IMG/VR virus record: IMGVR_UViG_3300022919_000010
Span: 1 to 27,699 of that record
Origin: a virus
Direction: 5' to 3' (one strand)
Length of the DNA: 27,699 nucleotides
Shown: one piece after another, positions 24,819 to 27,699 of the stretch
Layout: every line of letters begins with the position of its first letter
Position numbering within the stretch: the first letter of the stretch is position 1
Program-made: the position numbers and the translations under genes
The notes under the pieces: model-generated
The model's input: the letters and a program-made list of their open reading frames with translations, nothing else
Told to the model about the DNA's origin: nothing
Databases searched by the model: none

Positions 24819-25160
24819 ATGAATATATCTGATTTTAACTACAAAACTTATGACGATTCAAGAATAGAATTAGGTCATCAAATGAAGCCGAAAATTATTT
24901 GCAATGATGGATTTACAATGTCTGTTCAAGGATCTTCTGGCCATTATTGCGAGCCTCGTTCCGTTGAAAAAGACTACTACAGAATGGAAATTGGTTTTCC
25001 ATCTGAAAGAGAAGAATCGTTAATGCCTTTTATTGATGGGGATGATAAAACAGCTCCAACTAATACTGTTTATGGTTATGTTCCATGCGATATAATTGAT
25101 GAAATTATATTGAAGCATGGAGGAATTAATGAGGAATTAACCTTTAAAACTAAATCGTAA
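24819..25160 (+). CDS. Hypothetical protein opening the replication operon
   Basis: A 113-residue protein. MNISDFNYKTYDDSRIELGH, DGFTMSVQGSSGHYCEPRSV and VYGYVPCDIIDEIILKHGGI give a small mixed beta protein pattern that I recall from many Bacteroidetes phages as 'hypothetical'. The two Cys and the GYVP-x-x-I-x-x-I-I-x-K-HGG ending are well formed. It is the first gene after the hairpin-rich gap and overlaps the next gene start by one nucleotide. Function unknown. Confidence 0.62.
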   Translation: MNISDFNYKTYDDSRIELGHQMKPKIICNDGFTMSVQGSSGHYCEPRSVEKDYYRMEIGFPSEREESLMPFIDGDDKTAPTNTVYGYVPCDIIDEIILKHGGINEELTFKTKS

Positions 25161-25324
25161 TGACAGAAGAACTATTAAAAATGAAAGTCGGAGAAACTAA
25201 AGAGTTTGACCGAAAAGATCACAGATCAATTTTAAGCATCAAAACCGAGCTTAAACGAAAGAATAAAGGCGAATGGCAAAGCGAATTGTCCTCACATGGT
25301 TTATTTATTAAAAGGAAAGCATAA
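25160..25324 (+). CDS. 54-aa basic protein
   Basis: Begins MTEELLKMKVGETKEFDRKD and ends LSSHGLFIKRKA. Both ends share one nucleotide with neighbours (TAATG at 25160 and 25324), strong sign of a real coupled gene. The 'KVGETKEF' strand start followed by a basic helix and 'GLFIKRKA' strand looks like a small single-strand or nucleic-acid-binding fold (initiation-control region), but no family is named. Confidence 0.58.
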   Translation: MTEELLKMKVGETKEFDRKDHRSILSIKTELKRKNKGEWQSELSSHGLFIKRKA

Positions 25325-25680
25325 TGACCCCATACATATACGCAGGATTAAGCGAAAAAGATCAGTTCTTTTCTAAGAACAAAATTAAAATTGTTGATAA
25401 GCACGAAATCATACAAGCGGTTTGCATGGCCTTAGAGGTCACAAAAGATCAGTTAGTAAGTCCAACAAGAAAACGGCCCATAGTAATTGCCAGACAGATA
25501 GCAATTGGTTTAATTCGAAAATATAATCCAGAGGCAACACTTATTAACATTGGTAAGCTTTTTAACAGAGATCATTCAACTATTATTTACGCACAAAGAA
25601 CTTTCGACGATTTAAACGGCAGAGATAAACAATTTACTCAGGACGTATTAAAAGTCCTTAAATTAACTAATTACACATAA
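25324..25680 (+). CDS. DnaA domain-IV (HTH) mini-protein
   Basis: A 118-residue protein carrying only the DNA-binding domain IV of DnaA. Residues 25-95 hold HEIIQAVCMALEVTKDQLVS, RPIVIARQIAIGLIRKYNPE and the DnaA box signature region ATLINIGKLFNRDHSTIIYA. The 'RDHSTIIYA' segment corresponds to RDHTTV-A in bacterial DnaA. The AAA+ ATPase domain and helicase-loading domain I are absent. Such stand-alone domains could bind DnaA boxes at a phage origin, or compete with host DnaA. It overlaps by one nucleotide with the upstream 54-aa gene and the downstream clamp-motif gene. Confidence 0.85.
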   Translation: MTPYIYAGLSEKDQFFSKNKIKIVDKHEIIQAVCMALEVTKDQLVSPTRKRPIVIARQIAIGLIRKYNPEATLINIGKLFNRDHSTIIYAQRTFDDLNGRDKQFTQDVLKVLKLTNYT

Positions 25681-25817
25681 TGGAAAACTTTAAAAACGGT
25701 GCAAGGCCTCAAATACATCAGAGAGAGTATTACGTAAGCAGAATATTATCGCCAGAAGCTTTGAAAGCAAGATGGAAATTAATTAATTATAAACCAGGGC
25801 AGTTAAGTTTATTTTAA
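25680..25817 (+). CDS. 45-aa protein ending in a sliding-clamp motif
   Basis: Begins MENFKNGARPQIHQREYYVS, then RILSPEALKARWKLINYKPG, and ends QLSLF. The last five residues are a match to the bacterial beta-clamp binding consensus QL[SD]LF, the same type as in polymerases, MutS and Hda. Its start overlaps the DnaA-domain gene stop (TAATG). It is basic and mostly helical; no other domain. Likely binds the host sliding clamp and may link it to the DnaA-domain protein or compete with host clamp clients. The gene is short but the coupling and motif support it. Confidence 0.62.
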   Translation: MENFKNGARPQIHQREYYVSRILSPEALKARWKLINYKPGQLSLF

Positions 25818-25859: not shown

Positions 25860-26006
25860 ATGAGTAAAGAGATAAGAACTGATTTGGTTAAGGTCAGCAC
25901 GTATGCTAGAAACCAAAACAAAAGCACAACTTGGGTTTACGATCAGGCCAAAGTAAGCGCAATTAAAATAGTTGAAATAGACGGAGTTAAATTTGTAAAA
26001 GTTTAA
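25860..26006 (+). CDS. Excisionase/MerR-like small HTH protein
   Basis: A 48-residue protein: LVKVSTYARNQNKSTTWVYD, then QAKVSAIKIVEIDGVKFVKV. This matches the compact winged-helix pattern 'VxVxEYAxxxGxSxxxVYxxIKxGKIxxVEIDGVxFI' found in excisionase-type and small phage DNA-binding proteins. Preceded by its own promoter. Probable DNA-binding regulator of the replication operon or an Xis-like factor; no integrase is present in the window to decide. Confidence 0.68.
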   Translation: MSKEIRTDLVKVSTYARNQNKSTTWVYDQAKVSAIKIVEIDGVKFVKV

Positions 26007-26049: not shown

Positions 26050-26547
26050 ATGACAGAATTAATTGCAATAGATACGTTTTATAACGGCTATTTCTTCAGA
26101 AGCAGAACCGAAGCGAGGTGGGCGGTATTCTTTGATGCATTAGGTTGGGAATATGATTACGAGTTTGAAGCCTTTAAATTACCATCTGGAGTTTATTTGC
26201 CAGACTTTTATTTTCCTAAACTAAATGTTTGGGCAGAAGTAAAGCCTGGAGAGCTTTTAGAATTTGAACTGATAAGATGTAAAGAGTTATCATTTAAAAT
26301 GAAATCTAATGACGCTGGGGTTGATGTTTTGTTGCTTGAAGGTGTTCCAGACTTAAAATCAATACGAACTATTATAAACGGAGATATCGGAGTGAATGTC
26401 ATTCCAGTTTCAATAAAAGAAAAACAATATCCGTTCTATGGTTCTGATGAATTTAATAAAAATACTTACTGTTTATACGAGACTATTGAGGCTGTAAATA
26501 AAGCTAAATCTGCTCGTTTTGAATTTGAATGGAGGGCTAAAAAATGA
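26050..26547 (+). CDS. PD-(D/E)XK-like endonuclease
   Basis: A 165-residue protein; ATG 26050 is preferred over an in-frame TTG at 26014, which lacks a good context. Residues show a compact nuclease layout: Glu21 in FRSRTEARWAVFFDALGWEY, Asp52 in PSGVYLPDFYFPKLN, and Glu63/Lys65 in VWAEVKPGELL. This E...D...E-x-K arrangement fits the PD-(D/E)XK fold as seen in many small phage proteins. It could be a recombination exonuclease, a Holliday-junction-type nuclease or a nick-specific enzyme. The C-terminal half is alpha-helical and variable. It overlaps the replication gene by ATGA. Confidence 0.68.
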   Translation: MTELIAIDTFYNGYFFRSRTEARWAVFFDALGWEYDYEFEAFKLPSGVYLPDFYFPKLNVWAEVKPGELLEFELIRCKELSFKMKSNDAGVDVLLLEGVPDLKSIRTIINGDIGVNVIPVSIKEKQYPFYGSDEFNKNTYCLYETIEAVNKAKSARFEFEWRAKK

Positions 26548-27221
26548 GCGATAAACTAGGTTTTACATTCTACCCTAAGGATTGGTGGACTTCTGATTCT
26601 TTCTATAATTTAGATCCGATTGAGCGTTATATTTATTTAGAATGTTTGTTTGTAATGTATCAAAATGATGGGTATTTAAAAACCCAAAAAACCCAAATGG
26701 AGAGAAGATTATCGCTACAAATTACAGATTTACAATGGAGTAATTTAACTGCAAACTTTATCATTGATGATACAGAAATGTTTACCCATAAATCAGTTAA
26801 TAAAAGACTAAGAAAGGCTATAGCAAATAGACAAAATGGAACTAAAGGAGGCAGGCCAGCAAAAGAAAATAAACCCAAAAAACCCAACTTAGAAACCCAA
26901 AAAAACCCACCTTCTGAAAGAGAAGGAGAAAGTGAAGAAGAAAAAGAAATAGAATATGAAGTAATACCTTCAGCGACATTATTCACATTAAAAAACTTTG
27001 AGGATTTCGATTTAGAGAACGGAACTTTCATGCAGATTGCTTGTCGTGATTCAAAGAAAAGTATAGATGAAGTAAAATCTTTTAAGATTGAATTTATTTC
27101 TTACCAAAAAGCATTAGGATTGAAAACATGGAAAAGTGAAAAGGATGCTAAAATGCATTTTATAAACTGGCTTAAAAAACAACAGAAAACAATTACAGGA
27201 CAAAACAAATTCTTCCCATAA
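26544..27221 (+). CDS. Replication initiation-like protein (DUF1376/DnaD type)
   Basis: A 225-residue protein. The N-terminal ~85 residues (LGFTFYPKDWWTSDSFYNLD, RYIYLECLFVMYQNDGYLKT) form a winged-helix pattern like DUF1376/phage O-type initiator proteins, with QITDLQWSNLTANF afterwards. The middle is a Pro/Glu/Lys linker (KENKPKKPNLETQKNPPSER). The C-terminal part (residues 145-225) is helical and ends FINWLKKQQKTITGQNKFFP, compatible with a DnaD-like helicase-loader segment. Located between nuclease and primase genes, both coupled by overlaps (ATGA and TAATG). Likely recruits the helicase or primase to a phage origin. Confidence 0.7.
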   Translation: MSDKLGFTFYPKDWWTSDSFYNLDPIERYIYLECLFVMYQNDGYLKTQKTQMERRLSLQITDLQWSNLTANFIIDDTEMFTHKSVNKRLRKAIANRQNGTKGGRPAKENKPKKPNLETQKNPPSEREGESEEEKEIEYEVIPSATLFTLKNFEDFDLENGTFMQIACRDSKKSIDEVKSFKIEFISYQKALGLKTWKSEKDAKMHFINWLKKQQKTITGQNKFFP

Positions 27222-27699
27222 TGCAAATACACGAATTATCAACACAAACAGATTACGTTATCGATGTAAAGCGATCATCTGGAGAAGAACAAATGGTATG
27301 CCCTAAATGCAGCCATTTACGAAAAAAGAAAACGATTAAATGCTTCAGTTGGAATATCGATAAAAATGTTGGTAGATGTAACCATTGCGAAAGTTCATTT
27401 ATTGTTAAAGAGGAAAAACACATGAGTTTAAAAAATTATGTTAGGCCAGAGTTTAATAACAAAACAGATTTAAGCAAAAAACTTGTTGATTACTTTTTTG
27501 GTCGGGGGATTTCTCAAAACACATTAATCGATTTTAAAATTACTGAAGGTATTGAATGGATGCCCCAAGACAAAGGAAACGTTAATACAATTCAGTTTAA
27601 CTATTTCAGAGAAGGCAAGCTAATAAACACAAAATTTAGAACTGCAGATAAGGTATTCAAACTTGTAAAAGATGCGGAATTAATTTTATTCAATCTCGA
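27221..27699 (+). CDS. DNA primase(-helicase), 3' end outside window
   Basis: Starts in a one-nucleotide overlap with the replication initiator (TAATG) and runs past the right edge; about 159 codons are visible. Residues 27-56 hold a zinc-ribbon with C27-x2-C30 and C53-x2-C56 (MVCPKCSHLRKKK and GRCNHCESSF), the usual N-terminal zinc domain of phage primases. The following segment LVDYFFGRGISQNTLIDFKI and NTIQFNYFREGKLINTKFRT is typical of the stretch leading to a TOPRIM domain in T7 gp4-like primase-helicases. The catalytic TOPRIM and any helicase motifs lie outside the window, so the helicase part is assumed, not seen. Confidence 0.8.
   Translation, partial: MQIHELSTQTDYVIDVKRSSGEEQMVCPKCSHLRKKKTIKCFSWNIDKNVGRCNHCESSFIVKEEKHMSLKNYVRPEFNNKTDLSKKLVDYFFGRGISQNTLIDFKITEGIEWMPQDKGNVNTIQFNYFREGKLINTKFRTADKVFKLVKDAELILFNL

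Follow-up and report, generated by a model that had tools for sequence, protein, structure and literature searches.

Wherever a gene for the DNA-binding domain of DnaA runs directly into a gene for a tiny protein with a β-clamp motif at its end, the question arises of whether the two products form one device or are neighbors of separate function. The locus considered here lies in a 27.7-kb viral record, analyzed over its full length of 27,699 nucleotides (hereafter the window). A sequence-only reading had taken the two proteins for a coupled pair, made in a fixed ratio and acting in the manner of Hda, the AAA+ protein that carries an N-terminal clamp motif and stimulates DnaA-ATP hydrolysis (regulatory inactivation of DnaA). 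Both open reading frames (ORFs) were found at exactly the coordinates listed below, where the evidence for each feature is given in brackets.

Organization of the locus

25160–25324, + strand: 54-aa ORF, no assigned function (ORF call; 51% identity to the copy in L035, E 2e-14)
25324–25680, + strand: free-standing DnaA domain IV (DnaA-IV), 118 aa, DnaA-box-binding helix-turn-helix, no AAA+ (Pfam, alignment, AlphaFold model)
25680–25817, + strand: 45-aa basic protein, two predicted helices and a flexible tail, β-clamp motif QLSLF at its end (ORF, relatives, dN/dS, motif statistics, model)
25800–25814, + strand: QLSLF codons, predicted C-terminal clamp-binding motif (sequence; stop TAA at 25815–25817)
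25860–26006, + strand: 48-aa ORF that may encode a small helix-turn-helix protein (judged by eye; matches no family)
26544–27221, + strand: 225-aa replication (primosome-type) protein with DUF7833, downstream replication gene (profile match)
27221–27697, + strand: probable primase/helicase-type gene, truncated at the end of the window after its start; N-terminus zinc-finger-like as judged by eye (585 aa in the relative G003)

The 118- and 45-aa ORFs have a single base in common, position 25680 (TAATG), in agreement with the one-nucleotide overlap described from the sequence. An identical overlap joins the 54-aa gene to the DnaA-like gene, which makes it a matter of ordinary gene packing and nothing peculiar to the pair. 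L035 has a related 58-aa ORF in the place of the 54-aa one, and a 59-aa ORF in most of the other contigs is possibly related to the 54-aa ORF, with a weak E of 0.015.

A free-standing DnaA domain IV

The Pfam family Bac_DnaA_C spans residues 28–92 of the 118-aa protein (E 2.9e-19, 69.3 bits; gathering cut-off 31.5 bits). The AAA+ ATPase domain III was absent in the Pfam search, so the gene encodes the DnaA-box-binding domain alone, as had been proposed, and not a full DnaA initiator. An AlphaFold model (mean pLDDT 83) matched the DnaA-DNA structures 3pvp and 1j1v with TM-scores of 0.84–0.88 (target length), and in the alignment R49, R57 and D83-H84-S85-T86 fall on the positions through which DnaA domain IV contacts DNA; R49, D83, H84 and S85 presumably correspond to the contact residues R399, D433, H434 and T435 of Escherichia coli DnaA. 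The protein thus has both the fold and the contact residues of domain IV. The invariance of GKLFNRDH in the alignment is partly built in, because the same peptide seeded the search.

Phage mini-proteins of this kind (PHROG 27829; Pelagibacter phages, P12002L, Gundel_1) likewise lack AAA+ and are found in the replication module. The gene of Tenacibaculum phage Gundel_1 sits between NinB and the replication genes, directly before the latter, and that of Polaribacter phage P12002L is one gene away from that of a replication protein, positions that point to an initiator or origin-binding factor. We infer that the window protein is probably a separate DNA-binding factor serving the origin or initiator step. 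Since it has no AAA+ domain, it would not be expected to open DNA on its own.

A distant DnaA-IV protein (L004:4310-4684) has the N-terminal motif PY[IV]Y[AP]GL in common with that of the window; the end of its gene is overlapped by another, whose 104-aa product has an SSB-like tail (EDLPF). In L100, a 151-aa protein encoded ~2 kb upstream of an HNH gene contains, by eye, a DnaA-domain-IV-like stretch, GRRCHTTVLNHI.

DnaA boxes did not form an array. Exact boxes (TTWTNCACA) numbered 0–3 per record in the window and G001–G008, compared with ~2–6 expected from a mononucleotide shuffle, and were not clustered; the records carrying DnaA-IV had 1–3 against 4–6 expected, again never clustered. The region yielded no iteron array either. 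With fewer boxes than the base composition would give, and no clusters among them, a classical DnaA-box origin is unlikely in this group and was dropped; the protein may recognize variants of the site or boxes that stand singly. In most of these records, those of phages devoid of DnaA-IV included, the boxes are approximately twofold or more below expectation, a depletion that suggests avoidance of host DnaA sites.

A 45-aa protein with a conserved clamp motif

The product of positions 25680–25817, MENFKNGARPQIHQREYYVSRILSPEALKARWKLINYKPGQLSLF, is basic (pI ~10.1) and carries no catalytic domain. It was modeled as two helices (residues 11–22 and 25–35) and a loose tail, at a modest confidence (pLDDT 67) that does not suffice for searching by fold. 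Neither Pfam nor PHROGs contained a match, and nothing credible was found in the PDB or among named phages. Eight further IMG/VR contigs carry the gene, in copies 91–96% identical to that of the window, and the substitution rates across the nine contigs (mean dN 0.028, mean dS 0.203, dN/dS ~0.14) indicate purifying selection on a real gene. Alignments between contigs break near its start and stop codons, and the gene thus looks inherited as a cassette. Searches for distant homologues, made in IMG/VR by alignment and with two degenerate patterns, and in GTDB genomes, named phages and the PDB, returned members of the same phage group only, the remaining pattern matches being unrelated or stop-containing frames.

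The tail reads QLSLF in the window and QLILF in L036; six contigs have QLSLEL, and L038 has QLSFEL. Natural clamp motifs have the form Q-Φ-x-[L/M]-[F/L] or Q-Φ-x-[L/M]-x-[F/L], according to a 2024 review (PMC11139829), and a transposase study used QLSLF as the full-consensus clamp motif (PMC4549789). The step from QLSLF to QLSLEL therefore exchanges one accepted form for the other, both being defined in the review, which also reports that LF in place of LGL has no effect in Pol IV and that, among the types of clamp peptide reported, the form found in the 45-aa tail is the strongest (PMC11139829). The clamp motifs of Pol II and Pol IV are C-terminal (PMC11139829), and these polymerases and insertion-sequence transposases present the same Q-L-x-L-F or Q-L-x-L-x-L at a free C-terminus. 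In the window, by contrast, the motif is borne by an otherwise domain-less protein of 45 residues.

Loss of the tail in homologues had been named beforehand as the outcome that would speak against a clamp motif. The canonical consensus was retained in eight of the nine copies, with only QLSFEL of L038 falling outside its strict form. The last residues and the length of the protein vary, and the downstream gene differs almost every time, yet the motif persists. Among 354 called genes, the strict C-terminal pattern QLxLF/QLxLx[LF] was expected 0.04 times by shuffling and was seen seven times, six of them in the 45-aa family. All nine copies are close and belong to one phage group, so this conservation reflects few independent changes and is evidence of modest independence. 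The fit to the consensus and the shuffling statistics make it very probable, as a prediction, that the tail binds the β clamp, and the conservation in relatives strengthens that prediction beyond the earlier single-sequence reading.

The two genes are independent

The gene directly upstream of the 45-aa gene is DnaA-IV in the window only. The same position is held by a 125-aa HNH nuclease in L036, L040 and L042, in L035 by a 110-aa protein weakly matching a LuxR-type helix-turn-helix, in L038 and L039 by a 154-aa protein that matches no family, by a 53-aa ORF in L041 and by the end of a further ORF in L037, making at least five different neighbors across the nine contigs. In L002 and L003, an HNH gene lies between DnaA-IV and the 45-aa gene. 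Two records of 41–42 kb (G003 and G008) contain the 45-aa gene, and Bac_DnaA_C was not found in them; neither record is certified complete, making this absence strong, not absolute.

Within the phage group, all three contigs with DnaA-IV have the 45-aa gene nearby. A wider survey of 33 viral DnaA-IV loci revealed a clamp-tailed neighbor at two, both from this group, and at none of the other 31. For the cultured flavophages P12002L and Gundel_1, both with DnaA-IV, the whole record of the former and 32 kb of the latter contained no C-terminal clamp motif, and Flavobacterium columnare phage VK58 encodes clamp-tailed proteins but lacks DnaA-IV. Co-occurrence and adjacency, the marks of a conserved two-gene system, thus did not hold across phages, and no description of a DnaA-IV and clamp pair was found in the open-access literature. 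DnaA-IV and the 45-aa gene are independent and not linked in evolution. Their pairing in the window is a local product of gene shuffling and not a two-protein machine, and the best reading of DnaA-IV is that it is one of several swappable small proteins at the position upstream of the 45-aa gene. The fixed-ratio pair was accordingly abandoned, the synteny across the nine contigs having broken the adjacency on which it was built.

Clamp motifs in other phage proteins

The replication modules of these phages repeatedly contain genes for proteins with C-terminal clamp motifs. Among 17 HNH relatives of family phrog_1571, four end in QLNLF, QLTLL, QLSLDL or QLNLFD, where 0.02 would be expected, and phage HNH nucleases may more generally be tethered to the clamp. 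The HNH gene between DnaA-IV and the 45-aa gene (L002/L003:5363-5740) belongs to this family, which also occurs in L102, L106, L111 and L117. A 230-aa DNA methyltransferase (phrog_757; L003:306-998, G002) ends in the clamp motif QLALF. The phage recombination region of L003 additionally encodes a 701-aa protein in which a PD-(D/E)XK nuclease is fused to an FtsK/HerA-type ATPase (L003:2356-4461).

VK58 encodes a 47-aa protein (ASD53383.1; L118:5689-5832), annotated as hypothetical, that ends in GKQLTLNL and adjoins an SSB-like gene in the replication region. Its size and design are those of the 45-aa protein, but the two have no detectable sequence similarity, and any common role would be one of analogy. 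A second VK58 protein annotated as hypothetical (173 aa; L118:3474-3995) ends in QMDLFFK and is encoded directly upstream of an HNH gene.

A model for the clamp-tailed protein

A search of seven related records for the DnaN family domain and for Pol III alpha found neither, which suggests that these phages probably copy their DNA with the host Pol III and clamp. In our model, the 45-aa protein would be a stand-alone ligand of the host β sliding clamp (DnaN): the small basic helical hairpin would bear the flexible C-terminal tail, and the tail would dock in the peptide pocket of the clamp. Most likely, the protein would serve as an adaptor that brings the clamp, and hence host Pol III, either to the DNA of the phage or to one of its replication proteins, while the upstream DnaA-IV would be a separate DNA-binding factor and one of several alternatives for the same position. 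We give this reading, an orphan clamp adaptor in the phage replication module with a separate, swappable DnaA-IV, a probability of about 0.5; clamp binding, recruitment over inhibition and the part played by DnaA-IV are what we infer from the comparisons above.

The main rival holds that the protein is a host-takeover inhibitor that fills the pocket of the clamp and shuts out its host users, among them Hda-type DnaA control, repair polymerases, MutS or host Pol III. A small, basic, orphan gene whose tail is of the strongest clamp-peptide type would suit such a role, and the Twort protein Gp168 provides a precedent for a phage product directed at the host clamp (PMC11139829). Gp168, however, works through the DNA channel and not the peptide pocket (PMC11139829). 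A general block would also harm phages in which neither a clamp nor Pol III alpha was detected, and because the phage needs the same clamp we favor the inhibitor less than the adaptor, regarding it as possible though doubtful. The tails of the phrog_1571 nucleases and the G002 methylase, of two further small proteins that end in QLELQF and QISLF, and of the VK58 proteins raise another idea, that a clamp tail generally helps phage nucleases, methylases and small proteins to reach replication forks and that the 45-aa protein perhaps serves adjoining HNH or methylase genes. We consider this unlikely, given that the gene also occurs without such neighbors and that its product has no catalytic domain.

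That QLSLF is fortuitous, and the function of the protein unrelated to the clamp, seems very improbable: the QLSFEL variant would fit, but the motif persists although the end of the protein varies in residues and length, and the shuffling expectation of 0.04 applies to the whole gene set. Hardly any weight is left for a split, Hda-like pair that ties the clamp to DnaA boxes and turns host initiation off or phage replication on. It has in its favor the adjacency and one-base overlap in the window and the three-for-three association within the group, and it shares with Hda the presence of a clamp motif and a DnaA-related sequence in one short operon. Nevertheless, the window pair has no AAA+ domain for Hda-like chemistry, its motif is C-terminal instead of N-terminal, and its members are separate proteins that come apart in relatives through the absence of DnaA-IV, the intervening HNH gene and the changing upstream neighbors. 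With no clamp-tailed gene at the 31 other loci and few, scattered boxes in the DnaA-IV records, a required DnaA-IV/45-aa pair is largely refuted.

The capture of the host replisome by phages without their own clamp or replicative polymerase is known for helicase loading, as in the case of lambda P, and to our knowledge the capture of the clamp by such phages is far less familiar. The comparison with VK58 raises the tentative and rather unlikely prospect of a class of free-standing phage clamp adaptors of 45–50 aa, unrelated in sequence and alike in design, in which a short basic helical body with a C-terminal clamp motif would recruit the host sliding clamp to phage replication and swappable DNA-binding partners would supply the target site. 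If the prediction is true, a protein of 45 residues with little beyond a clamp-docking tail would be a minimal capture device or inhibitor that is easy to test, and its analogue in the F. columnare phage VK58 makes it accessible in a cultured system.
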